From the NCBI GenBank assembly GCA_003553005.1, contig PUPG01000006.1:1-22543 (forward strand): a stretch of 22,543 nucleotides of DNA, in the 5' to 3' direction. The DNA comes from Bacteroidales bacterium. Lineage in GTDB: Bacteria > Bacteroidota > Bacteroidia > Bacteroidales > UBA7960. The position numbers and the translations under genes are program-made. Of the stretch, positions 2,301 through 20,002 are shown piece by piece. Below the pieces are notes generated by a model that saw only the letters and a list, made by a program, of their open reading frames with translations, ran no database searches and was not told the origin of the DNA. Position 1 is the stretch's first letter; each line of letters begins with the position of its first letter.

Positions 2301-2906
2301 ATGCATGCCCCAAACGCCATCAAAGTTGTTCCTTGTACGGAAGCCCCCTTTATGTTCAATGGCTGGAAACACCACATGGGCTTTCTGGTCAGCCAGGTAC
2401 GCAAATGGACCCTGAAACCGGAACAGCTTTATCCCCTGTTTGTGGCAAAGCTCAAGGTGTTGGGTGATTCTTTGTTCGATATCTATACCGGAAAACTCGA
2501 GCCAGGGCAGATTACTGGCGAGCTAACGGAAACCCTGCAGGGCTTCAATGTTTACGATAAAGAAGCCTATACCCGTTGGATAGACAGTTCATCCCAGCTT
2601 TTCTGGCAGCTGAGCATTTCGGATGGCTCTGAGTGGACCATGCGCCATGGCGACTCTGAAGCGTTTTACATTCACATCCATCCTGCCCGCCATGGCTTGC
2701 ACACGGAGCGGTTAAAGGCCAACCAGTTGCGTACTGCCCTCGCTACCCTGGTCCTGGCCAACATGCGTGGCGAACAGCCCAACATGACTATACTTAATCA
2801 CGTGCGCCAGGATTATCTCGGACTCTCCAGGGTCACCAAACCGATGGCCAAGGAAATATTCGCCCTGATGAACGGGATGGCTAAAATAGCTGATGTCCCG
2901 CACTAA
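2301..2906 (+). CDS. Conserved-looking protein of unknown function, 201 aa
   Basis: I do not recognise this family. It is a soluble-looking protein with no signal peptide or membrane segment. The N-terminal part contains FNGWKHHMGFL (about 18-28), followed by mixed charged and helical sequence. A His-rich stretch, FYIHIHPARHGLHTERLKANQLRTA (split here at about 114-138), has several histidines that could be catalytic or metal-binding. The C-terminal half is helical (ALATLVLANMRGE, PMAKEIFALMNGMAK). A canonical -7 box precedes it and codon use resembles neighbouring genes, so it is probably real. It is divergent from ettA and convergent with prmC, with only 12 bases between the two stop codons and no terminator hairpin there. 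Function cannot be assigned; the context gives no firm clue. Confidence 0.8.
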   Translation: MHAPNAIKVVPCTEAPFMFNGWKHHMGFLVSQVRKWTLKPEQLYPLFVAKLKVLGDSLFDIYTGKLEPGQITGELTETLQGFNVYDKEAYTRWIDSSSQLFWQLSISDGSEWTMRHGDSEAFYIHIHPARHGLHTERLKANQLRTALATLVLANMRGEQPNMTILNHVRQDYLGLSRVTKPMAKEIFALMNGMAKIADVPH

Positions 2907-3909: not shown

Positions 3910-5145
3910 TCATTGCTCAGGATAGATGAGGTAGGGTGCTCTTTGGTCTTGGAATGCTTCCAGGTCATCTTGCCAGCTTTTCCGTATTTCTTCAGCACCA
4001 TGGCCCTTTTTTATCTGCCGCCGCAGGGTGGATGTCCCGGCCAGCCTTTCAAAGAAAGGGTTGAAGAAGTTTTCCTGGTCCGGGTAGCTGCGATAGGCAT
4101 CAATGAGGTATTGCAGGTTGATCTTTCCCTTGTTGCGCAGTTCATGCAGCTCGTGGTTGCGCAGATCACGTCCCTGGCACTGCATTCCTTCGTGGGGCGG
4201 ATTGGGTGCTGCCCTCACGCTCTCCGGCGTAAAAGTGAACGGGTAATCTCCGGCGGGCAGCTCCGGGTGCCCGAATACCTGGAACGGCATTTCCGTACCG
4301 CGGCCCACGCTGATCGTGGTGCCTTCAAAAAAACACAGGGAGGGATAGAGGTAGATGGCGTGCATATTTGGCAGGTTGGGTGATGGTGGGACCGGCAGAT
4401 GGTAGGATTGGCCCCTCACGTAGTTTTGCACCGGGATGACGGTCAGATGCAGCTCCCGGCCTTCAGTTTCCAGCCATCCCTCCCCACTGGCCATCCGGGC
4501 GTATTCCCCTACAGTTAAGCCGTGCACGATGGGCACGGGGTGCAAACCCACAAAAGACCGGTAATCTGGCTCAAGTATGGGGCCATCCGTGAAATGTCCG
4601 TTGGGGTTTGGCCTGTCCAGGATGATCACGGGAATCTCAAGGGCCGATGCTTCTTCCATGATATAGGTCATGGTGGAAATATACGTATAGAAACGGGTTC
4701 CCACGTCCTGCATGTCGAACACAATGATATCCACATCTTCAAGCTGTGCAGCCGTTGGCCTCCTGTTGTCGCCGTAAAGGCTGATCACGGGAAGTCCACT
4801 TTGCGGGTCCTGGCTGTCGTCTACCATTTCGCCCGCCGCAGCTTCTCCACGGAATCCATGTTCAGGGCTGAACACCTTCACCACGTTTATGGTCGAACGC
4901 AAAAGCGTGTCCACCAGGTGCACCTCGCCGACCTTGGAGGTGTGGTTGCCTGCTACGGCTACCCGTTTTCCTTCAAGTAGCGGCAGGTATTTCTCCATTT
5001 GCCAGGCGCCGGGAGTCACTTCCCGGCTGCCATCACCGTAGTTCGTCATGGCCGATGCCTGCGGCATGAATGTCCCGGTACCAATGAGCAATGCCCACAG
5101 GAGCATGGAGATGTGATGCGGAAAAAAGCCAAATAAAGTGTTCAT
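3910..5145 (-). CDS. namZ: DUF1343 / NamZ-like exo-beta-N-acetylmuramidase, secreted
   Basis: The DUF1343 family (CAZy GH171, type member NamZ/YbbC) removes N-acetylmuramic acid from the non-reducing ends of peptidoglycan fragments, supporting wall turnover or recycling. The 411-aa length fits. Seen are an N-terminal hydrophobic signal (about 12-32, ending MPQASA) predicting export, then AGNHTS (65-70), SPEHGFRG (93-100), FDMQDVGTRFYTY (143-155), LDRPNP (176-181) and HGLTVGEYA (208-216), all typical of DUF1343. The frame is open far upstream, but that region overlaps lipA. The ATG at 5145 places the signal peptide at the N-terminus. A run of ten A residues in the sense strand lies just upstream of the start. 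The gene sits between lipA (50-base gap) and prmC (19-base gap), probably in one transcript. The family assignment is firm; the exact substrate is inferred from family members. Confidence 0.9.
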   Translation of the reverse strand: MNTLFGFFPHHISMLLWALLIGTGTFMPQASAMTNYGDGSREVTPGAWQMEKYLPLLEGKRVAVAGNHTSKVGEVHLVDTLLRSTINVVKVFSPEHGFRGEAAAGEMVDDSQDPQSGLPVISLYGDNRRPTAAQLEDVDIIVFDMQDVGTRFYTYISTMTYIMEEASALEIPVIILDRPNPNGHFTDGPILEPDYRSFVGLHPVPIVHGLTVGEYARMASGEGWLETEGRELHLTVIPVQNYVRGQSYHLPVPPSPNLPNMHAIYLYPSLCFFEGTTISVGRGTEMPFQVFGHPELPAGDYPFTFTPESVRAAPNPPHEGMQCQGRDLRNHELHELRNKGKINLQYLIDAYRSYPDQENFFNPFFERLAGTSTLRRQIKKGHGAEEIRKSWQDDLEAFQDQRAPYLIYPEQ

Positions 5146-5150
5146 GGTAA

Positions 5151-5160
5151 TTTTTTTTTT
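5151..5160 (-). repeat. Homopolymer A10 (sense strand) before the namZ start
   Basis: Ten consecutive T on the plus strand read as A10 on the coding strand, five bases upstream of the namZ ATG. A-rich start regions replace Shine-Dalgarno sites in Bacteroidota, so this probably helps translation. Its length makes it slippage-prone. Confidence 0.6.
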
Positions 5161-5195
5161 AAGACAGCACTGACCACACTTGCCCCCGACCCGCT

Positions 5196-6056
5196 TTACA
5201 CATGTTTTTCGGCATGGTAGGAAGACCGGACCAGCGGAGCGCTTTCGGCGTGAAGAAAACCTTTTTCCAGGGCGATCCGGCCATACCTGGCAAAGGTATC
5301 GGGATGGATGTACTCCTGCACGGGAAGGCTTTTGCGGGAAGGCTGCAGGTATTGCCCGATGGTGATCACCTGGCAATTGACGGCACGGAGGTCGTCCATG
5401 GTGCGCAGGATTTCTTCCTCCGTTTCACCCAGACCGAGCATGATGCCCGACTTGGTGCGGATGTGGCTGTGATCAGCAATGTATTTGAGCACCTGCAGAC
5501 TGCGGTCGTAGTCAGCATACACCCTTACCGGCCTGGTCAGTTCCCTGACCGTTTCCAGGTTGTGGCTGATCACCTCCGGCGCGGCGTCCATTACTGTTTG
5601 CACATCTTCCATGTGGCCTTTGAAATCCGGGATCAGGGCCTCGATAGTCGTTTCAGGCGACAGGGATTTGACGGCACGAATGGTGGCTGCCCAGTGTGCG
5701 GCGCCCCCATCTTCGAGATCATCACGGTCTACGCTGGTAATCACGCAGTGCCTGACGCCCATGGAAGCTGCTGCCCTGGCTACCTCTTCCGGCTCACGTG
5801 GATCCGGCGGCAGCGGTTTGCCTGTTTTTACGTTGCAAAAGCGGCAGCTGCGCGTGCATACGTCGCCAAGGACCATGAAGGTAGCCGTGCCATCCGCCCA
5901 GCATTCTCCTTTATTGGGACAGGCCCCGCTTTCACAGATCGTGTGCAGGTTGCCGGACTTTAATGTCCGGCTGATATGGCCATAATCGCTTGCACGGGTG
6001 AGTTTGGTGCGTAACCATGGCGGCTTTTTTAAATAGTTGTCTCTGAACTTCCTCAC
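5196..6056 (-). CDS. lipA: Lipoyl synthase LipA
   Basis: LipA is a radical-SAM enzyme that inserts two sulfur atoms into protein-bound octanoyl groups to form lipoyl cofactor on 2-oxoacid dehydrogenase E2 and glycine-cleavage H proteins. The 286-aa length is typical. Seen are the auxiliary cluster cysteines in CESGACPNKGEC (C41, C46, C52), the radical-SAM CxxxCxxC in CTRSCRFC (C67, C71, C74), VITSVDRDDLEDGGA in the middle, and the terminal RSSYHA (277-282), whose serine is a cluster ligand in the family. Nothing appears to be missing. It starts a probable minus-strand operon with namZ and prmC and has an exact -7 box 58 bases upstream. No lipB or H-protein gene lies nearby, but gcvT, a downstream user of lipoylated H protein, is about 9 kb away. 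Confidence 0.97.
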   Translation of the reverse strand: MRKFRDNYLKKPPWLRTKLTRASDYGHISRTLKSGNLHTICESGACPNKGECWADGTATFMVLGDVCTRSCRFCNVKTGKPLPPDPREPEEVARAAASMGVRHCVITSVDRDDLEDGGAAHWAATIRAVKSLSPETTIEALIPDFKGHMEDVQTVMDAAPEVISHNLETVRELTRPVRVYADYDRSLQVLKYIADHSHIRTKSGIMLGLGETEEEILRTMDDLRAVNCQVITIGQYLQPSRKSLPVQEYIHPDTFARYGRIALEKGFLHAESAPLVRSSYHAEKHV

Positions 6057-8067: not shown

Positions 8068-10311
8068 ATGAAAAAAAATTTACAAAGCACCATCAGTTTG
8101 CTGGTCACCTGCCTGTTGCTTGCACCAACGGCAGTCTGGGCCAGTGATGCCACAAGGGACGTGGTAGAGGTAAACACGATTGCCGAGCTTCGTGACCAGG
8201 AAGATGACGGGGAAACGGTTTATCAGCTCACCGCTGAGGCCATCCTCACCTACCAGGAAGACTGGCGAAACAGCAAGTACATCGAAGACGGCACGGCAGG
8301 AATCCTGATTGACGATAATGATGGCATCATTACCACTGAGTATGAGATTTATGACGGGATTACCGGCATCAAGGGAACGCTCAGTGTGTTTGGCAACATG
8401 CTCCAGTTCGTGCCGGAGGAAGACCCCGGTGAGGCGACGTCCAGCGACAATGTGATTGATCCGTTGGTGATTAGCATGGAAGACTTTGTCAACAACTTTA
8501 TGGACTACCAGGCGCGGCTGGTTACGATTGAGGAGGTGGAGTTCATGGTAGATGCCGGGGAAAATTTCGCCAACGGACAGGTCTATGATTTTACCGATGG
8601 AGATTTTGTCGGGGAGTTCAGGTCCACATTTTTTAATGTAGACTATATCGGCGACCCCATTCCTTCAGGCTTGCTTAATCTCACCGGTTTACCCAACTCA
8701 AGAGCCGAAGGCGATTTCCTGACGGCCAGGAACTGGGACGATATTGAAACCCTGGCTTCCTTTTCAGTGGAGTTTGACATCACCGATGAAGACAACAACG
8801 AGGTGCACGATGTGGAACTGGAGTTTTTTGGGGAAACTGTTACAGAGCCGCCCTACTTCTTTGAGGAAGTACCGGTGGGAACCCATCCCTATACGGCCAC
8901 AAAAGAGGGCTATCACACGTCGACAGGACAAGTCACCGTGAGTGACGAAGACGTGGTATATCATCTCGTGATGGTGGAGATCGATCCCAACATGGTGACC
9001 GAATTTCCCTGGCACGAAGATTTCTCCGGTGACTTTCCACCGGCGCATTGGGCACATCATGCTTTAGGTGCAGGTGGCTGGGAACAGGATGATGAGCGTG
9101 CATTCCATGATGCCACTTCGCAGGGTGAGGAAGCGGATAGCTGGCTCATTACCCCGCAAATCCAACTCCCTGAGGATGAAAACATGCTGATCTCCTTCTT
9201 CGAAAACAATCAGTTCATGACAGAATATGACTATAGCGGACTGATGATCTCCACAGGTAGCGGTAACCCTGAGCATGAGCACTTCCAGGAGCTTTATGAG
9301 TCGGATGACAACATCGGTGTGGGTGACCCCCAGGAAGCCCTGGTCTCACTCGGTGATTATGCCGGCGAAGTGGTTTATCTGGCCCTCAATTACCAGGGCG
9401 AGTTTGCTCACCGCTGGTGGGTTGATGACTTCATGATCGATGAAGCGCCTGGAGCCATAGAAGTGCCGGATATTGCCACCCTGAAGAACCAGGAGGTGGA
9501 TGGCGACCTGCCTTTCATGATCACTGGTGAAGTCGTGGTCACGGCTTTGCAGCAAGCCTATCGCGGTCAATTCTTTGTGCAGGACGAAACGGCTGCGATC
9601 CTCGTGGATGACCCGGATGGCATCGTGGAAGCCGAGCTAGAGCTGTATGATGGCATTACCGGCTTCACGGGTAACCTCACCGAATTCCAGGAAATGCTTC
9701 AACTTTCCCCCACCGAGGATCCGGGAACGCCTTCCTCTCATGATAATGAGGTTGAACCCCTGATGATTACCCTGGAAGACCTGGATTATGAACATCAGGG
9801 CATGCTGGTCTATGTCGCCAACGTCTTTTTTGAGGAAGACAATCCAGAAAACTTTACGCACAATGAATCCTTTTTTATTTACGACGACACCGCTGAAGGA
9901 GTAATTCGTACGCCAAACTCTGAGGGTTTGTTCGACTACTTCGGTGAACCGGTACCCGGTCCGGATGATCCCAAAGACATCGTTGGGGTGATTCATCAGC
10001 GTTTTGAAGTGCTCAGGCTGCAACCACGTATGCTGGCTGATTTTATGGAGCCCACGAACGTGGTACATATAGATGCACTGGAATTGCGCGTATATCCGAA
10101 CCCGGCAAATCATATGGTGTTTGTGGAAACCGGAGAGGGCGCCATTGACCAGGTGCGGGTGTATAACATCCAGGGGCAAATGGTGCTTGATCACGCTGGA
10201 GACGCATCCGGCAGGGTGCAACTCAACGTGTCTGCGCTCACTCCCGGCATATATATGATGCAGGTCAGCTCGGGCAACTCCGTAAGCACACAAAAACTAC
10301 AAGTTCAATAA
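8068..10311 (+). CDS. T9SS-secreted multidomain surface protein with duplicated DUF5689/OB-like modules and a choice-of-anchor J-like domain
   Basis: This 747-aa exported protein is acidic throughout. Seen in order: a signal peptide (1-26, ending VWASD); module A (about 33-229); a short PEGA/carboxypeptidase-regulatory-like beta-domain (about 231-305, with PVGTHPYTATKEGY); a choice-of-anchor J / cleaved-adhesin-like domain (about 313-458, with PWHEDFSG, DSWLITPQI and WWVDDFMID); module B (about 465-661); and a T9SS C-terminal sorting domain (about 669-747, with LRVYPNPA, VRVYNIQGQ and LTPGIYMMQV). Modules A and B are clear duplicates: both have AELR/ATLK-Q-E, GxAAILxDDxDGI-like, LYDGITG/IYDGITG and a matching LQF/LQLxPxEDPG. 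They resemble the Bacteroidota DUF5689/OB-fold type, which I infer from memory. It should be exported by T9SS and cleaved or anchored at the cell surface. A receptor and a lipoprotein follow; the substrate is unknown. Confidence 0.88.
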   Translation: MKKNLQSTISLLVTCLLLAPTAVWASDATRDVVEVNTIAELRDQEDDGETVYQLTAEAILTYQEDWRNSKYIEDGTAGILIDDNDGIITTEYEIYDGITGIKGTLSVFGNMLQFVPEEDPGEATSSDNVIDPLVISMEDFVNNFMDYQARLVTIEEVEFMVDAGENFANGQVYDFTDGDFVGEFRSTFFNVDYIGDPIPSGLLNLTGLPNSRAEGDFLTARNWDDIETLASFSVEFDITDEDNNEVHDVELEFFGETVTEPPYFFEEVPVGTHPYTATKEGYHTSTGQVTVSDEDVVYHLVMVEIDPNMVTEFPWHEDFSGDFPPAHWAHHALGAGGWEQDDERAFHDATSQGEEADSWLITPQIQLPEDENMLISFFENNQFMTEYDYSGLMISTGSGNPEHEHFQELYESDDNIGVGDPQEALVSLGDYAGEVVYLALNYQGEFAHRWWVDDFMIDEAPGAIEVPDIATLKNQEVDGDLPFMITGEVVVTALQQAYRGQFFVQDETAAILVDDPDGIVEAELELYDGITGFTGNLTEFQEMLQLSPTEDPGTPSSHDNEVEPLMITLEDLDYEHQGMLVYVANVFFEEDNPENFTHNESFFIYDDTAEGVIRTPNSEGLFDYFGEPVPGPDDPKDIVGVIHQRFEVLRLQPRMLADFMEPTNVVHIDALELRVYPNPANHMVFVETGEGAIDQVRVYNIQGQMVLDHAGDASGRVQLNVSALTPGIYMMQVSSGNSVSTQKLQVQ

Positions 10312-10333
10312 GACCAATTTTGGGTTGATAAAC

Positions 10334-10392
10334 CTGTGAACAGCCGGTTGCCATATAACCAGATCCTAAGCAGCCCGGCTGTTTGCAGTTTT
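10334..10392 (+). terminator. Large hairpin with U tract between the surface protein and the receptor
   Basis: Arms 10334-10347 and 10375-10388 pair over 14 bp (two G-U pairs) around a 27-base loop and are followed by four T. The long loop and short U tract suggest a partial terminator or attenuator, so the downstream receptor may be transcribed at a lower level or from its own promoter. Confidence 0.6.
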
Positions 10393-10444
10393 ACACTTAC
10401 CCTGTTTGCAATAGTATTTCATCAATAACTAAAGGTGACTCCTT

Positions 10445-13021
10445 ATGAACAAATTCAGATTCTTTATTCATTTTTGCCTGATAACTGCCTTCCTGGCATT
10501 GTCAGGACATCAGCTTTACGGCTCGGTGATCTCAGGCCGTGTGGTTGATGAGGAGGGCAACCGTTTGCCCTCTGCCCTGGTGGAGCTTGTGAACGTGGAA
10601 ACAGACAGGAGCTATGGAACCACAACCAATATCGACGGAGAGTTTCAGATTACGGTAGAAGCGGGCACCTATTCCATGAAAATATCCTATATGGGATATG
10701 AGGAAAAAACACGCACGGTGGATGCCACAACCGACAAGGACCTTGGCAGGCTGGTGATGAGCGCCACGGCCATTGGTCTACAGGAGGTGATGGTGGTATC
10801 TTCTTTTGCGCGGGACCGGCAGACCCCGGTGGCCATATCCAACATCTCGGCTGAAGCGATTACAGAGCGTCTCGGTACGCAAGAATTTCCGCAGCTGCTG
10901 CAATCTACGCCCAGTGTGTATGCCACACGTGATGGTGGTGGTTTTGGTGATGGCAGGATCAATATGCGCGGCTTTGACTCCAACAACATTGGTGTGCTGA
11001 TCAACGGTGTGCCCGTGAACGATATGGAGAACGGTCGCGTCTACTGGTCGAACTGGGCCGGACTCTCCGATGTGACGGAGACCATGCAGGTGCAGCGCGG
11101 ACTCGGTGCTTCCCGGTTGGCCATCAGCTCAGTGGGAGGCACAATCAACATCATCACGCAAAGTACCGATGCCAATAAAGGTGGTACCTTGCTGTATGGC
11201 ATCGGCCATGATGGCCACAGGCAAGAGTCCGTCACGCTATCCACAGGTATGATGGACAATGGTTGGGCAGTGACCGCCCTTGGTGGCCGTCGTTCCGGTG
11301 AAGGTTTTGTGAGAGGCCTGGACTTCGAAGGCTGGTCTTATTTTCTGAATGTATCCAAAAGAGTGAACAGGCAGCATACGCTGTCGCTGACCGCTTTCGG
11401 GGCACCCCAGTGGCACAATCAGCGCTGGCCCAGGATGAGAATCCAAACCTATCGCGATCACCCTGATGGTATTCGCTATAATCCCTCACTTGGCGTCATG
11501 AATGGGGAAAAGATCAGCGCCTCATTTAACCAGTACCACAAGCCACAAATATCCCTGAACCACTTCTGGTCCATCAGCGACGAAACCACCCTGACCACTG
11601 CGGCATATGTGTCCATTTCTTCGGGCGGTGGCCGCAGGATTGTGGGTGAGCGCAGTGACTGGCTGGAATACAACCGCGATACCGGATTGCCTACTGATGC
11701 AACCAAGCTCACCCCCGACGGTTTGCTGGACTTTGATGCGGTGATGGCCGAAAACGCCCTCTCCGAAACAGGATCAAAAGCCATCAAGGCCATGGCCGTC
11801 AACAGCCACGACTGGTACGGTATGCTATCCACACTGCAGCACGAATATGATGACTTCATCACGCTAACGGGTGGACTGGACCTGCGTTATTACAAAGGTT
11901 ATCATTACCAGGAGATTACCAACCTGCTTGGGGGTACACACTTCGAAGACTTCAGCGACATCAACCAGGATCCGTCTACCAGGCTGAAAGAAGGCGATAA
12001 GATCAACTATTATAACCTCGGAGAGGTGATGTGGGGTGGCCTTTTTGCCCAGGCAGAATACACAACGGATGAGTATTCTGCTTTCGTTTCTACAACGGGT
12101 TCATTAACAAACTATCGCCGTACCGATTATTTTGATTATGCGGATGATGATCCCATGCAGCAAACGGACTGGGTGGACTTTTTTGCCTGGAGTCTCAAAG
12201 GTGGAGCAAACTACAACCTGACAGAAAATCATAATGTGTTCGCCAACGTGGGGTATTTTACCCGTGCACCTTTCTTCCGCTGGGCTTTTGTCGGACATAC
12301 CAACATCATCAATGAAGATGTTCGTCACGAAAGGGTCTTTTCTTCAGAGGTAGGGTACGGTCTGCGTACCCCACTGGTTGCTGCCAACGTTTACCTGTAC
12401 AGGACAGAATGGCTGGACAGGGCCCTGGTAAGAAATCTTGGACAAGGGGTTATTGCCAACATTACTGGCCTGAATGCACTGCACCAGGGCGTCGAAATAG
12501 ACGCTACCCTCAGGCCTACCGACAGGCTTGAGGTGCGGGCGATGTTCTCTTATGGCGACTGGCAGTGGCAGGATGACCTTACGGCAGAGATTTTTGATGA
12601 CCAGCAGGTGTTCATTGACAGCATCGAAGTGTTTGCAGGAGGCCTGAAAGTGGGGAACAGTGCACAGACCACCGCCGCACTGGGTGTTAGTTATGAAGTG
12701 TTGGACGGACTCCGGCTTGGATTCGATGCCAATCACTTCGATCGCCTGTTTGCCGACTTTAACGTGGAAGATCGCGGCGACTTTGAAACACGCGGAACCG
12801 ATTCCTGGCAGATGCCTTCATACCAGATGCTGGATCTGAACCTCAGGTATCGCTTTGACATCGCCGGACTGGATGCCACTTTTATCGCCAACGTCAACAA
12901 CGTCTTTGATACCGAGGCCATACGGGATGCCACCGACGGACGATCCTTCGATTATGATACGGCCCTGGTCTACTATGGCTGGGGACGGTCGTGGACTACA
13001 ACCCTAAGGATCAGATTTTAA
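10445..13021 (+). CDS. SusC-like TonB-dependent outer-membrane receptor
   Basis: TonB-dependent receptors import substrates across the outer membrane using energy from TonB-ExbBD. The 858-aa chain has a signal peptide (about 1-26), an N-terminal carboxypeptidase-regulatory-like domain (27-110, with ISGRVVDEEGNRLP and SYMGYEEKT), a possible TonB box at EVMVVS (114-119), a plug domain (about 125-238, with RINMRGFDSNNIGVLINGVP and GGTINIITQ), and a long beta-barrel of alternating residues ending in the C-terminal phenylalanine (TTTLRIRF). At 858 aa it is shorter than many SusC proteins of about 1000 aa, and no SusD gene follows. The next gene starts only 11 bases later and encodes a lipoprotein, so the two are probably co-transcribed. 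The ligand cannot be inferred from the sequence. Confidence 0.94.
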   Translation: MNKFRFFIHFCLITAFLALSGHQLYGSVISGRVVDEEGNRLPSALVELVNVETDRSYGTTTNIDGEFQITVEAGTYSMKISYMGYEEKTRTVDATTDKDLGRLVMSATAIGLQEVMVVSSFARDRQTPVAISNISAEAITERLGTQEFPQLLQSTPSVYATRDGGGFGDGRINMRGFDSNNIGVLINGVPVNDMENGRVYWSNWAGLSDVTETMQVQRGLGASRLAISSVGGTINIITQSTDANKGGTLLYGIGHDGHRQESVTLSTGMMDNGWAVTALGGRRSGEGFVRGLDFEGWSYFLNVSKRVNRQHTLSLTAFGAPQWHNQRWPRMRIQTYRDHPDGIRYNPSLGVMNGEKISASFNQYHKPQISLNHFWSISDETTLTTAAYVSISSGGGRRIVGERSDWLEYNRDTGLPTDATKLTPDGLLDFDAVMAENALSETGSKAIKAMAVNSHDWYGMLSTLQHEYDDFITLTGGLDLRYYKGYHYQEITNLLGGTHFEDFSDINQDPSTRLKEGDKINYYNLGEVMWGGLFAQAEYTTDEYSAFVSTTGSLTNYRRTDYFDYADDDPMQQTDWVDFFAWSLKGGANYNLTENHNVFANVGYFTRAPFFRWAFVGHTNIINEDVRHERVFSSEVGYGLRTPLVAANVYLYRTEWLDRALVRNLGQGVIANITGLNALHQGVEIDATLRPTDRLEVRAMFSYGDWQWQDDLTAEIFDDQQVFIDSIEVFAGGLKVGNSAQTTAALGVSYEVLDGLRLGFDANHFDRLFADFNVEDRGDFETRGTDSWQMPSYQMLDLNLRYRFDIAGLDATFIANVNNVFDTEAIRDATDGRSFDYDTALVYYGWGRSWTTTLRIRF

Positions 13022-13053
13022 CGGGCTGATTTATGAACTTTAATCAATTTGAC

Positions 13054-14394
13054 ATGATGAACTATCTTAAAAAAATAAGCCTTCTGCTTGCCTTGTCCGC
13101 GGCATTCATCTTCCAGGCATGCGATCCCAATGAAGACCTTTATGAAAAAATGGATGCGGACATCCCGCCCCATAGCGAGAACATCGAATATACGCTAACG
13201 GGGTCCGACTACAACAACATTGGTGGCGTGATCGCCGACCACCAGGCTTTCAACGACACGATGCCAGCGATGGATTATGTGCCGGATATCCTGGCCAGTC
13301 GCTTCGTGACCCTTAACGTGGGAAGTGCTGCCAATGTGACCTTCAACCACTTGATGCTGCACCCCGAATGGTGGGATGCCGGTTTTGGCTACGAACTGAC
13401 CGAACAGGACTATGCCTTCCTGGGCATTGATGGCGCGTTTTCCCCTGATAATCCGGCCTACCAGCATGTGCCTGATTTTCTCGACAGGGAATATCCGGAT
13501 GCCGAAGAAGAAGACGTGGTGCAGATCATTTATAATTACGATCTGGATGGCGAGATCGTGAAAAACGAAGATACCTACGAACTGACCGAAGGAGAATGGA
13601 CCCTTATTGAAACCAGGGAAGATGTGCCTTATGTGGGCTACGAGATGACACCGGAAGATTACGACTTGTTTGGTGGCAGCGTGGCAGACTTCAACAACTT
13701 CTCGGAAGAGGATCCCCCCGAGGTCCTGATCCCTGTTTTTCTCAAGAACCAGTTTCCGATGGCACTGCCCGACGCGGAGAAGGTGATCAAATACCGCTAT
13801 TTTGATGGCAGCCAGACTGTAGACAACATCGATAAGTTTGTCTATGACGGCGTAACCTGGGAAATGATTCCATATATCGAGGAACGCACCGAGCAATATG
13901 TATTTGGCGATGAAGGATGGGCCTTTGACCCGACGGTTATCTTTACGCTCGCGAGAGGCGATTACCAGTACCTGGTAGACATTGACCCCATTGGTCAGCA
14001 GGAATTCCAGTATGACGACTTTGCTTACTATTACGGGGCCAGTGCATTTTATCAGAATTTCGACATCCGGATCATCGGAAGAAGACTGGATAAGCTGGAA
14101 AGCGGTGAATACGCTGACCCCGAACTGGGAGAGATCTATGAGAACGAAGGCGCAGATGCCGTGATGGATGAGATGGTCAGGCGCATCAAGGAAGAAGGAA
14201 TCATCGAATTGCTGCAGCACAAGTACCCGGATGCGCAACCGCAGCTTGGCGGCCTGGACGTGCACTTTTTCGTGCGTTATGAGACATTCGCCGACAACTG
14301 GGTGCGCCGCTTTCCGGAAGCAGAATATATCTGCACGGAACCCGGCGATCCGCCTCAATTTGAGCTGGTAAACTATATCGATAACATCGAATAA
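13054..14394 (+). CDS. Repeat-containing surface lipoprotein, not SusD-like; unknown function
   Basis: A lipoprotein signal is seen: Lys-Lys, a hydrophobic core (LLLALSAAFIF) and the lipobox FQAC with Cys23. Two adjacent ATGs (13054, 13057) give the usual short N-region; an in-frame ATG at 13033 would add seven residues and is less likely. The mature part carries three related blocks, at about 13186, 13384 and 13633, each starting with a Y-(L/M)-T-x-x-DY motif and then a hydrophobic VPDFL/IPVFL-type strand followed by a (Y/F)P-rich, acidic segment and a Y-x-Y/W stretch. A C-terminal region contains YYYGASAFYQNFDIRI. It lacks the helical TPR architecture expected of SusD/RagB. It is acidic and follows the receptor by a few bases. 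It may be a surface partner or lid of the receptor. I do not recognise a named family with confidence. Confidence 0.82.
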   Translation: MMNYLKKISLLLALSAAFIFQACDPNEDLYEKMDADIPPHSENIEYTLTGSDYNNIGGVIADHQAFNDTMPAMDYVPDILASRFVTLNVGSAANVTFNHLMLHPEWWDAGFGYELTEQDYAFLGIDGAFSPDNPAYQHVPDFLDREYPDAEEEDVVQIIYNYDLDGEIVKNEDTYELTEGEWTLIETREDVPYVGYEMTPEDYDLFGGSVADFNNFSEEDPPEVLIPVFLKNQFPMALPDAEKVIKYRYFDGSQTVDNIDKFVYDGVTWEMIPYIEERTEQYVFGDEGWAFDPTVIFTLARGDYQYLVDIDPIGQQEFQYDDFAYYYGASAFYQNFDIRIIGRRLDKLESGEYADPELGEIYENEGADAVMDEMVRRIKEEGIIELLQHKYPDAQPQLGGLDVHFFVRYETFADNWVRRFPEAEYICTEPGDPPQFELVNYIDNIE

Positions 14395-16723: not shown

Positions 16724-16771
16724 CCTCAACCTCAATCTCAACCTTAACCTTAACCTTAACCTTAACCTTAA
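16724..16771 (+). repeat. Telomere-like hexamer array, CCTTAA x5 plus three degenerate units
   Basis: Eight consecutive 6-base units: two CCTCAA, one TCTCAA and five perfect CCTTAA (16742-16771). The array ends 12 bases before the ATG at 16784, so it would lie in the 5' leader of the phospholipase C-like gene. Related CTCAAC/CTTAAC words occur on the opposite strand at about 19882-19920. Confidence 0.85.
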
Positions 16772-16783
16772 TCCTACGCCGCC

Positions 16784-17767
16784 ATGAAAACATTCTCCTA
16801 CCCGCTTTTTGTCCTCTGCCTGCTCTTCTCCATCCACTCTCCCAACGCCCATCCTTTTGGTTTCCATGCGCATCGGAAAATCAACCGGATGGCCGTATTC
16901 TCCCTGCCACCGGAGATGATCGGACTGTACAAGACCCACATCGAATTCCTGGCTGAGCGCTCCATTGATCCGGACAGGCGGGCACATGCCGTCGAAGGAG
17001 AGGCACCCAGGCATTACATCGATATCGACCACTTTGGGGAAGATCCTTTTGTGGTGATGCCCGGAGAATGGGACGAAGCCGTGGAAAAATTTACGGAAGA
17101 CACCCTGGTGCAATATGGCGTGCTGCCCTGGCACATCCATGTGATGATGGGCAGGCTGACCCGTGCTTTCCGGAACAACGACATGGATGATATCCTCCTG
17201 CAGTCAGCACATATCGGCCACTACATTGCCGACGCCTGCACCCCCTTGCATACCACAAAGCATTACAATGGCAGGACACCGGATGAGCGGGGCATTCATG
17301 CCTTCTGGGAGAGCCGGCTCCCAGAGCTGTACGCCCATGAGTATGACTATTTCGCCGGAAGGGCATCCTATATTCATGATCCCCTGGAACGTGCATGGGA
17401 GCTTGTGGAGACCAGTCACCTTAAGGTAGATACCGTTTACATGGTTTTTGACAGTTTAAGGCAGCATATGCCGGAAGACATCATGTATGCGCACGAAACG
17501 CGAGGACAGGCCATCAACAGGGTCTACTCCAGGGACTTTTCCCGTGCGTTTCACGATGGCATGGAGGGTATGGTAGAGCGACAAATGCGCATGGCAGTTC
17601 GTGCTGTGGGTGATTTTTGGTTTACCGCCTGGGTAAATGCAGGCCAGCCGGCGCTGGAACCCCTGCAAGGGCGAAGCATCAGCCAGCGGCTGCGAAACCT
17701 CCTGCGCCAGGAAGAACAAGACTGGGAGGAGTCAGAAACCAGTGTTGGACGTTATGCCCCCGAATAG
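16784..17767 (+). CDS. Secreted zinc-dependent phospholipase C / S1-P1 nuclease-fold protein
   Basis: The fold family includes phosphatidylcholine-hydrolysing phospholipase C and S1/P1 nucleases, trinuclear-zinc phosphoesterases. Seen are a signal peptide (about 1-22), then likely zinc ligands with spacing matching B. cereus PLC (D55, H69, H118, D122, H128, H142, E146): D82 (HYIDIDHF), H117 (PWHIH), H146 and D150 (GHYIADACTPLH), H156, and H172 and E176 (IHAFWES). Residue H30 (FHAHRKIN) fits the N-terminal histidine. The tryptophan normally near the mature N-terminus of family members is phenylalanine here (FGFHAH). It is exported and lacks a lipobox. It stands alone: a terminator and a hexamer array lie upstream and 157 bases separate it from the debranching enzyme. 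Substrate choice (lipid, nucleotide or other phosphoester) cannot be told from the sequence. Confidence 0.82.
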   Translation: MKTFSYPLFVLCLLFSIHSPNAHPFGFHAHRKINRMAVFSLPPEMIGLYKTHIEFLAERSIDPDRRAHAVEGEAPRHYIDIDHFGEDPFVVMPGEWDEAVEKFTEDTLVQYGVLPWHIHVMMGRLTRAFRNNDMDDILLQSAHIGHYIADACTPLHTTKHYNGRTPDERGIHAFWESRLPELYAHEYDYFAGRASYIHDPLERAWELVETSHLKVDTVYMVFDSLRQHMPEDIMYAHETRGQAINRVYSRDFSRAFHDGMEGMVERQMRMAVRAVGDFWFTAWVNAGQPALEPLQGRSISQRLRNLLRQEEQDWEESETSVGRYAPE

Positions 17768-17924: not shown

Positions 17925-19874
17925 ATGGCATACATACAATTCGATAAAACGCAACTGGTCAACCTGGAATACTCGCTGAACAAAGAGATGGTTCGATCCA
18001 ATCTCTCGGGTGCTTTTTCCTGCACCACCATCATTGGGTGCAATACCCGCAAATACCACGGATTGCTGATCACCAGGCAGCCCCAACTCGATGGCGATCA
18101 CCACGTTTTGCTGTCGCAGGTTGACGAAACCGTCATCCAGCGCGAAGCTGAATTTAACCTTGGGGTGAATAAGTACGCGGACCATTTCTATCCCAAAGGG
18201 CACAAATACATCAGGGATTTCACCGCCGACCCGATCCCTTCGGTTACCTACCGGGTGGGGGGCGTCTTGCTGACCAGGGAGACCATGTTTGTATCGGACC
18301 GCGACATGGTCATGATCCGCTATACACTCGTAAAAGCCCGTTCAGCAACCCGTTTGCGCTTAACGCCTTTTCTTGCTTTCCGAAACATGCACGAGCTCAG
18401 CAAAGCCAATGCCTATCACGACACCAGTTATGAAAAAACTTCCCATGGTATAAGGGTCCGCATGTATGATGGTTATCCCTGGCTGTATATGCGGTTATCC
18501 AAAGAGAATGCGGATTACCAGCATCATCCGGAGTGGCATCACGGCCTGCACTATTTCCAGGAGGAGGAACGAGGTTATGCGGCCAGTGAAGACTTGTTGG
18601 TGCCCGGCATATTTGAAACCGAAATCGGCAGGGGGGAGAGCCTGATCTTTTGTGTAAGCACATCAGAGGCCCCGGATATTGACTTGCAGCGGCTATTCGA
18701 CAGTGAGGTCTCCAGGCGTGTACCCAGGGATTCATTCCTGCACAGCCTGCATAATGCAGCTGCCCAATTTTTCGTGGTCCGGGACGATAAGGCCATGCTG
18801 GTGGCCGGATTTCCATGGATTTCCTACAGTGGTCGTCATACCTGGATTGCGCTGCCCGGATTATTGCAGGCAGCGCCGCATGAAGGCATCTGCCAGGCCA
18901 TACTGGACCACATGATCAGCCAAATACAGGGGGCGCTCTTCCCGGAATCCTATCAAAAAGATCAGGTGATATTTGATGCAGCAGACACGGCGCTTTGGTT
19001 TTTTCACGCCTTGCCCCATTGCTGCGCAGAGAAATCAAAGCCGGCGATCTGGCAGGCCTATGGTTCGGTGATGCGAAAAATTCTGGATGCCTATGCCGAT
19101 GGTTTGGATATTGGCGTGTCCCTGCATGACAATGGGCTATTGTTCATTGATCCTGCCGCGGATGCCCTGACCTGGATGAATGCCGGCAGCGATGGCCGCT
19201 GCCACACGCCACGTGCAGGCTATGTGGTGGAGATCAATGCCTTGTGGTATAATGCCTTGCAGTATGCACTGGAATTGGCGCATACAGCTGGTGATGAGGC
19301 TTTCGTCGCAAAATGGGAGACCCTGGCCAATAAAGCAGCGGATGCTTTTATTGCTGTTTTCTGGAATGAACAGCAGGGCTGCCTGGCAGACTATGTGCTG
19401 CACGATGTGCCCAACCTGCAGGTTCGTCCAAACCAGGTGATTGCCGCTGGTCTTGCCCATTCGCCACTTAATCAATTCCAAATCAAATCGATACTGGACG
19501 TAGCCACCCATGAATTGTTGACACCCCGGGGTCTCCGAACTTTATCGCCGAAGGATCCACAATACCAGGGTCGTTACCAGGGCGATGCATTTGCCAGGGA
19601 TGCCGCTTACCACCAGGGTACGGTATGGGTCTGGCCATTAGGGTTTTATGCCTGTGCCTGGAAAAAAATATATGGACCTGAAGGGATGGCACCCATTCAG
19701 AAAATATTGGATGATTTTGAACCTTGTCTGACCGAAGCCGGTGTGGGTACGATTTCGGAAATTTATGAAGGCGCCCCGCCGCATCACGCACGCGGGGCCA
19801 TCTCGTTTGCCCCAAGCCTGGGGGAGGTTTTGCGTATGCAGTCACTTATGGTGGAAGTAAGAAGTAAGAAGTAA
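17925..19874 (+). CDS. Glycogen debranching enzyme (amylo-alpha-1,6-glucosidase, GH133-like)
   Basis: It removes alpha-1,6-linked branch stubs from glycogen in the cytoplasm. The 649-aa chain has an N-terminal GDE_N beta-rich domain (about 1-250, with TRKYHGLLI near 41-49) and a C-terminal alpha/alpha-toroid GDE_C domain (about 285-640). Typical motifs are seen: VEINALWYNAL (435-445), RPNQ (501-504) and YHQGTVW (562-568). There is no signal peptide. The ATG at 17925 gives MAYIQFDKTQL, which fits the family start. The last residues (VRSKK) and the stop codon are encoded by a GAAGTAA heptamer array, so the C-terminal tail is repeat-derived. GT4 and GH57 genes follow on the same strand, which together make a glycogen metabolism cluster. 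Confidence 0.93.
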   Translation: MAYIQFDKTQLVNLEYSLNKEMVRSNLSGAFSCTTIIGCNTRKYHGLLITRQPQLDGDHHVLLSQVDETVIQREAEFNLGVNKYADHFYPKGHKYIRDFTADPIPSVTYRVGGVLLTRETMFVSDRDMVMIRYTLVKARSATRLRLTPFLAFRNMHELSKANAYHDTSYEKTSHGIRVRMYDGYPWLYMRLSKENADYQHHPEWHHGLHYFQEEERGYAASEDLLVPGIFETEIGRGESLIFCVSTSEAPDIDLQRLFDSEVSRRVPRDSFLHSLHNAAAQFFVVRDDKAMLVAGFPWISYSGRHTWIALPGLLQAAPHEGICQAILDHMISQIQGALFPESYQKDQVIFDAADTALWFFHALPHCCAEKSKPAIWQAYGSVMRKILDAYADGLDIGVSLHDNGLLFIDPAADALTWMNAGSDGRCHTPRAGYVVEINALWYNALQYALELAHTAGDEAFVAKWETLANKAADAFIAVFWNEQQGCLADYVLHDVPNLQVRPNQVIAAGLAHSPLNQFQIKSILDVATHELLTPRGLRTLSPKDPQYQGRYQGDAFARDAAYHQGTVWVWPLGFYACAWKKIYGPEGMAPIQKILDDFEPCLTEAGVGTISEIYEGAPPHHARGAISFAPSLGEVLRMQSLMVEVRSKK

Positions 19875-19881
19875 GAAGTAA
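19854..19881 (+). repeat. Heptamer array GAAGTAA x4 containing the debranching enzyme stop codon
   Basis: Four perfect copies of GAAGTAA. The stop codon TAA (19872-19874) lies in the third copy. The array continues into a GGTTAAG/TTGAGG-rich stretch (about 19882-19918). Confidence 0.85.
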
Positions 19882-20002
19882 GAAGGTTAAGATTAAGTTG
19901 GGGTGTTGAGGTTGTGGCAGCGCCAGGGTTGCACAGTAGATTTTAAACAATTGAAGCGGATGTAGTGACAGGGATTGTCCTGTTGTAAAACAATACGTGG
20001 GT

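Follow-up and report, generated by a model that had tools for sequence, protein, structure and literature searches.

The stretch analyzed here (the window, 22,543 nucleotides) is contig PUPG01000006.1, positions 1–22,543, of assembly GCA_003553005.1 from a Bacteroidales bacterium, and carries on its forward (+) strand three consecutive genes encoding a secreted protein, here termed P1, a TonB-dependent receptor, and a repeat lipoprotein. The last two constitute a TonB-dependent receptor with a new lipoprotein partner. The genes and their parts are as follows (T9SS, type IX secretion system):

8068–10311, +, P1, 747 residues, T9SS-secreted, two DUF5689 modules flanking a cleaved-adhesin/MAM-like domain (Pfam, NCBIfam, fold search, self-alignment)
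8158–8757, +, P1 DUF5689 module 1, residues ~31–230, best PF18942 stretch 124–226
9001–9447, +, P1 cleaved-adhesin/MAM-like (choice-of-anchor J) domain, residues 312–460
9454–10047, +, P1 DUF5689 module 2, residues ~463–660, by alignment with module 1
10090–10305, +, P1 T9SS type A sorting domain, residues 675–746 (PF18962, 2.1e-14; TIGR04183, 4.3e-15)
10445–13021, +, TonB-dependent receptor, 858 residues, with an N-terminal extension of CarboxypepD-like type, a plug and a barrel; distinct from SusC
13033–14394, +, repeat lipoprotein, start probably at 13057 (Met9), conserved Cys30 at 13120–13122
Residues 48–112, 115–199, 199–301 and 300–452 of the lipoprotein, +, four modules, by profile comparison

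The receptor contains both a plug (PF07715, 1.6e-15) and a β-barrel (PF00593, 1.6e-12), which identifies it as a TonB-dependent receptor. The arrangement of such a receptor, with an N-terminal extension of the CarboxypepD-like kind, and a lipoprotein gene immediately after it is that of SusC/SusD and RagA/RagB, and would be explained by a variant glycan locus in which the lipoprotein is a highly diverged SusD. However, the SusC/RagA family model gives the window receptor 69.6 bits, below SusC membership (cut-off 368.25), and no glycosidase was found among the neighbors whose Pfam families were read. The lipoprotein itself matches no Pfam family even at E ≤ 1 and a single NCBIfam entry at E 0.12, and none of the 86 members of its family alignment matches a Pfam family, SusD included. 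Its predicted structure is a chain of α/β modules (mean predicted local distance difference test score, pLDDT, 91.6) with no convincing fold match in the PDB, whereas the SusD fold is helical. We therefore regard a diverged SusD as extremely improbable. An earlier, sequence-only reading of the window had described a lipoprotein with three repeats and no SusD features, and had named a SusD/RagB profile match as one refutation; the absence of a match in the window protein and the 86 members agrees with it. Profile comparison finds four modules: modules 1–3 are related to one another at 98.6–99.6% probability, and a fourth, diverged module at 77–92%, with reversed profiles reaching at most 1.4%.

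To survey conservation of the locus, 20 aligned receptors were used to scan species genomes, and the best 80 of 587 relatives, which belong to Bacteroidota and Chlorobiota, were taken, a set that leans to close kin. With lipoprotein-family profiles, the gene immediately after the receptor proved to be a co-directional lipoprotein gene in 73 of the 77 loci that have downstream sequence (71 in an earlier, less sensitive pass), the exceptions being L031, L048, L077 (where the lipoprotein precedes a second receptor), and L079; gaps are 8–51 bases in 73 of 78 measured. In 198 sampled genomes of the phylum, searches used the receptor profile alongside a lipoprotein profile, the latter with a weak first pass that scored no more than nine candidates in each genome. 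A receptor scoring over 900 bits occurs in seven genomes, each with an adjacent lipoprotein match, while the other 26 receptor matches (25 genomes) score 558–815, and none of the 15 of these that were fetched has the lipoprotein. On a FastTree phylogeny of 133 receptors (740–1000 residues, two remote ones dropped beforehand; some long branches drew a program warning), partnership with the lipoprotein marks one receptor clade, since the 90 high-scoring receptors form exactly one side of a branch with support 98, and among them the lipoprotein is next in 84, the locus is cut off in two, and four are without it.

P1 is far less constant. It lies directly upstream in eight of the 80 receptor loci (L001–L006, L008, and L010), all among the ten closest, and in two of these as a fragment where the contig ends; in L007 it is eight genes away on the opposite strand, and the remaining loci of the 80, some of which have no upstream sequence, showed no full P1 alongside. 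The conserved unit is therefore the receptor/lipoprotein pair, with P1 an optional third member in close relatives. The SusD-less receptor/lipoprotein unit proposed in the sequence-only reading is thus borne out by the SusC score, the SusD null result, the adjacency, and the tree, and its two genes do co-occur widely; the same reading’s inclusion of P1 in the unit holds only in part.

Several loci differ from the common arrangement. Among the sister receptors without a lipoprotein (L107–L121), several lie between genes of the same sizes (~310, 420, and 545 residues before; 141–146 residues after) as the lipoprotein-bearing loci of Flavobacteriaceae, so that the lipoprotein (and nuclease) was apparently gained or lost at a single locus. 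In an Alistipes bin (L044, 9980–12601) the receptor is split into two open reading frames of 146 and 700 residues and may be broken or misassembled. The lipoprotein beside the receptor of L122 (genome G015, one of the seven with a receptor over 900 bits) matches in two frames, its first residues lying in a different frame from the rest, and may be disrupted or misread. L005, filed under Candidatus Nealsonbacteria, has a typical Bacteroidales trio, and the bin is probably contaminated.

P1 scores 42.2 bits with PF18942 (cut-off 28.6) and is a DUF5689 protein. Its two modules align with a score of 318, compared with a mean of 37 (standard deviation 6, maximum 57) in 200 shuffles, an alignment by which they are a true duplication. 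A fold search, which covers mainly residues 311–471 with the central domain, matched that domain to cleaved-adhesin and MAM domains, including gingipain adhesin domains. A HIN-domain/double-stranded DNA complex also in the Foldseek list (rank 24, E 9e-5) was rejected because the fit is too poor (root-mean-square deviation 20.8 Å). Together with the PF18962 and TIGR04183 matches, these results confirm the earlier description of P1 as a T9SS-secreted protein with duplicated modules around an adhesin-like domain; the T9SS tail is present in all 57 members of the P1 family. The gingipain resemblance would suit an adhesion module, with P1 and the lipoprotein as adhesins and the receptor incidental, but the receptor and lipoprotein are paired across most of the receptor clade and a full P1 stands beside few of them, making this explanation very unlikely.

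The DUF5689 family points in another direction. It was found in 92 of 198 genomes of the phylum, and 20 of its proteins, one each from 20 genomes, were sampled below the lipoprotein type in the list, some rows being skipped. At E ≤ 0.001 all 20 match DUF5689, 17 have a T9SS tail, 13 carry an endonuclease/exonuclease/phosphatase (EEP) domain (Exo_endo_phos), three PLDc_2, and one Endonuclease I; three match a nucleic-acid-binding family with the OB (oligonucleotide/oligosaccharide-binding) fold; these counts may overlap. In L085, DUF5689 is fused to a DNA/RNA non-specific endonuclease. The family search also returned a Bacillus subtilis match, which may be the secreted nuclease YhcR, a protein with OB-fold parts. 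These domain combinations suggest for DUF5689 a role as nucleic-acid-binding module in secreted nucleases. P1 has the DUF5689 module and T9SS tail in common with the secreted DUF5689 nucleases of the EEP, Endonuclease I, and phospholipase D (PLD) types, but no nuclease domain was detected in P1 or its 57-member family, a domain content that fits binding over cutting.

Nucleases also adjoin the pair itself in part of the loci. Endonuclease I is the gene after the lipoprotein in 14 of the 68 loci that reach that far, 11 co-directional and three convergent, in Flavobacteriaceae, Carboxylicivirga, Marinifilaceae, Marinoscillum, and two further genomes (assigned by similarity, with Pfam families read on L018, L064, L067, and L073). 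Endonuclease I matches number one to three in 15 of 19 genomes searched, and the copy adjoining the pair is the sole one found in four of the nine such genomes searched whole. The Poisson probability of this adjacency, 2e-31, assumes two copies in every 3500 genes, takes no account of kinship, and shows a large excess, no more. In L064 a single protein after the pair combines Endonuclease I with DUF5689 and a T9SS tail, a fusion that, as a domain architecture, ties the P1 type to the nuclease type.

A further link is to natural transformation. In a transposon screen of Riemerella anatipestifer, two adjacent genes, RA0C_RS04915 and RA0C_RS04920, came up, and clean deletion of either abolishes transformation (PMC8459023). 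RS04915 encodes an outer membrane protein with a CarboxypepD-like domain and RS04920 a protein with DUF5689 and DUF5017 (choice-of-anchor J); the mechanism is left unexplained there, and the authors suggest new machinery (PMC8459023). In the open-access literature, the material on DUF5689 and that on RS04915 both came from this paper. Deletion of tonBA or tonBB also lowers transformation in R. anatipestifer, tonBB perhaps via iron, according to a second study (PMC8383284). The passages on iron regulation in PMC10434189 list choice-of-anchor J genes, name neither DUF5689 nor DUF5017, and are not informative here.

Riemerella-type pairs occur near window-type pairs in four genomes. L027 (Marinifilum, Bacteroidales), L047 (Formosa), and L067 (Gramella) each have a receptor with a DUF5689 lipoprotein after it and an EEP nuclease gene (PF19580) alongside, at a distance of two or three intervening genes from the window-type pair; in L125 the gene order agrees as far as the second receptor’s start, and the DUF5689 lipoprotein lies where expected. 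The CarboxypepD-like domain of the three Riemerella-type receptors is above cut-off in two and the plug below cut-off in two. The DUF5689 lipoproteins of the same loci match an NCBIfam model that takes its name from Riemerella M949_1556 (NF052645) along almost the full model at 175–325 bits (cut-off 475); M949_1556 may or may not be the same gene as RS04920. The choice-of-anchor J half of the M949_1556 lipoprotein matches a domain inserted in some window-family lipoproteins (61.3 bits in L033, 66.1 in L014), whereas the window lipoprotein has neither this insert nor DUF5689.

The Riemerella genes and the window both have an outer membrane protein with a CarboxypepD-like domain and a DUF5689 protein as neighbor. 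In the window-type pair, however, the partner is a different lipoprotein from the DUF5689 one, and the DUF5689 protein of the window is T9SS-tailed and upstream, in place of an adjacent DUF5689 plus DUF5017 lipoprotein of the Riemerella type. The two receptor types (apparent homologues in L027, L047, and L067 standing in for the Riemerella sequence itself) share 21–26% identity (about 23%) and fall on separate branches with support 100, and on these grounds the window receptor was rejected as an orthologue of RS04915. Among 196 genomes of the order, a wider set of window-type receptors and the DUF5689 lipoprotein occur together in 32, and lie within 20 kb of each other in 15 of these, with 0.3 expected. 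Fourteen of the 15 linked receptors score in the lipoprotein-less range (for nine the locus was fetched, and the lipoprotein is next in none of them), and a single arrangement is common to most; the linkage is for this reason read as one event or a few. Among lipoprotein-bearing receptors there are counter-examples, with the two pairs 285 kb (G001) or 3.95 Mb (G361) apart on one contig, or on different contigs (G063 and G164). No comEC was found within a few genes of the DUF5689 lipoprotein in the order sample, as compared by eye, the nearest being ~15 kb away (G390).

Since nucleases neighbor the pair in part of the loci, DUF5689 is fused to nucleases, and the pair lies near a competence-type pair in four genomes, we propose, at about even confidence, a non-SusD outer membrane importer pair whose cargo is most likely nucleic acid, with P1 as a capture factor. 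The receptor and repeat lipoprotein would act as a two-component importer in the mode of SusC/SusD, but the lipoprotein is unrelated to SusD. Presumably anchored at the surface of the cell, it may capture cargo or close over the barrel, a lid role drawn by analogy, and TonB would supply the energy. The cargo may be DNA fragments, oligonucleotides, or nucleotides. P1 would serve in this lineage as an extra capture factor that keeps nucleic acid close to the receptor, and some other lineages have a secreted nuclease as a neighboring gene. A more specific version is doubtful, if possible: that the pair is a second, hitherto unrecognized outer membrane DNA importer of Bacteroidota and Chlorobiota, a TonB channel with a repeat-lipoprotein lid and no type IV pili, which would feed transformation and/or DNA nutrition and belong with the Riemerella-type pair to a family of TonB-driven DNA receptors.

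A number of observations weigh against a nucleic acid importer, among them the separation of the two receptor types and the lipoprotein-less range of the linked receptors described above. A Pfam scan found no nuclease domain in the trio, and the gene at 16784–17767 (+) of the window is not supported as an S1/P1 nuclease, having a weak match to zinc-dependent phospholipase C (PF00882, 0.0016, below cut-off). The assignment of DUF5689 to the OB fold consists of sequence matches, that in L064 falling below cut-off. P1 and the lipoprotein are strongly acidic (isoelectric point, pI, 4.05), which does not favor direct DNA binding; acidity varies within the lipoprotein family, two of five homologues being basic (pI 8.1–8.8), and a pI of 4.2 is likewise found for the L064 protein with Endonuclease I and DUF5689, which presumably encounters DNA. 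The closest relatives, among the best 80 of 587, come from CSSed metagenome bins, which we take to be soda-lake sediment, an origin that would explain acidic surface proteins. The sequence-only reading had seen no substrate; this is weakened by the nuclease neighbors elsewhere, the DUF5689 fusions, and the natural transformation analogue.

Other neighbors leave room for different cargo. Endonuclease I is not next in 54 of the 68 loci, and most loci have none of the nuclease kinds looked for, as would be expected if the pair imported peptides, metal complexes, or cofactors, and nucleases were adjacent by chance or through shared regulation. TonB-dependent receptors with non-SusD surface lipoproteins serve haem, siderophores, and cobalamin (HmuR/HmuY, XusA/XusB, and BtuB/BtuG), and in five loci of Bacteroidota (L009, L015, L017, L020, and L033) the second or third gene after the receptor encodes a class II type ribonucleotide reductase, an enzyme that needs cobalamin. 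Against such cargo, Endonuclease I is next as often as it is even though most genomes searched have so few matches, the EEP domain occurs in most sampled DUF5689 proteins, and no riboswitch or other Rfam match was found in the window or in L009, L015, L017, L020, and L022. Cobalamin regulation was rejected on this last result, a riboswitch being a common mark and not a strict requirement. Non-nucleic cargo of some kind appears unlikely, if conceivable.

The ribonucleotide reductase genes would also suit scavenging of phosphorus or nucleotides, in which secreted nucleases and phosphodiesterases cut outside the cell and what the pair takes up is small products, phosphorylated or nucleoside, not DNA. 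Genes of the phosphodiesterase/nucleotide pyrophosphatase family come next in three loci (L033, family read; L014 and L015, by similarity) and also after a lipoprotein-less relative (L119), and polyphosphate kinase is next in L061 and, by similarity, after a relative in L114. The co-location with the competence-type pair suggests larger DNA instead, and no nucleoside transporter was found among the neighbors with Pfam families read, so that we rate scavenging as rather improbable. Further neighbors, like polyphosphate kinase and the class II ribonucleotide reductase, are unrelated or ambiguous (seryl-tRNA synthetase, quinolinate synthetase), again to the disadvantage of a nucleic acid importer.

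HmuR/HmuY, XusA/XusB, and BtuB/BtuG have in common with the window a surface lipoprotein, unrelated to SusD, that serves a TonB receptor, a likeness of arrangement; unlike theirs, the window lipoprotein matches no curated Pfam family, and no riboswitch was found. Among the matches listed for TonB, competence, and DNA uptake in the open-access literature, a scope outside which preprints and most subscription papers lie, no description of the receptor/lipoprotein pair was found. The passage of DNA across the Bacteroidota outer membrane looks to be an open question, for which the pair is a concrete candidate, and a lipoprotein family without a Pfam match is added to the partners of TonB-dependent receptors.

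Other genes of the window include a NamZ-type (DUF1343) exo-muramidase gene (3910–5376, –) near the trio, with a homologue at the same place in L001, L004, L006, and L008. A DUF1343 gene is likewise essential for R. anatipestifer transformation (PMC8459023); its presence near the trio is possibly a coincidence. A 201-residue open reading frame at 2301–2906 (+) has no Pfam match at E ≤ 0.001, and L001 has one of the same length there, matched by size and place. The gene at 16784–17767 has a homologue at the same place in L008, and just upstream of it (16724–16771) CCTTAA is repeated eight times; a second repeat, GAAGTAA × 4.6 at 19854–19885, spans the end of a debranching-enzyme gene, and both are possible phase-variable tracts.

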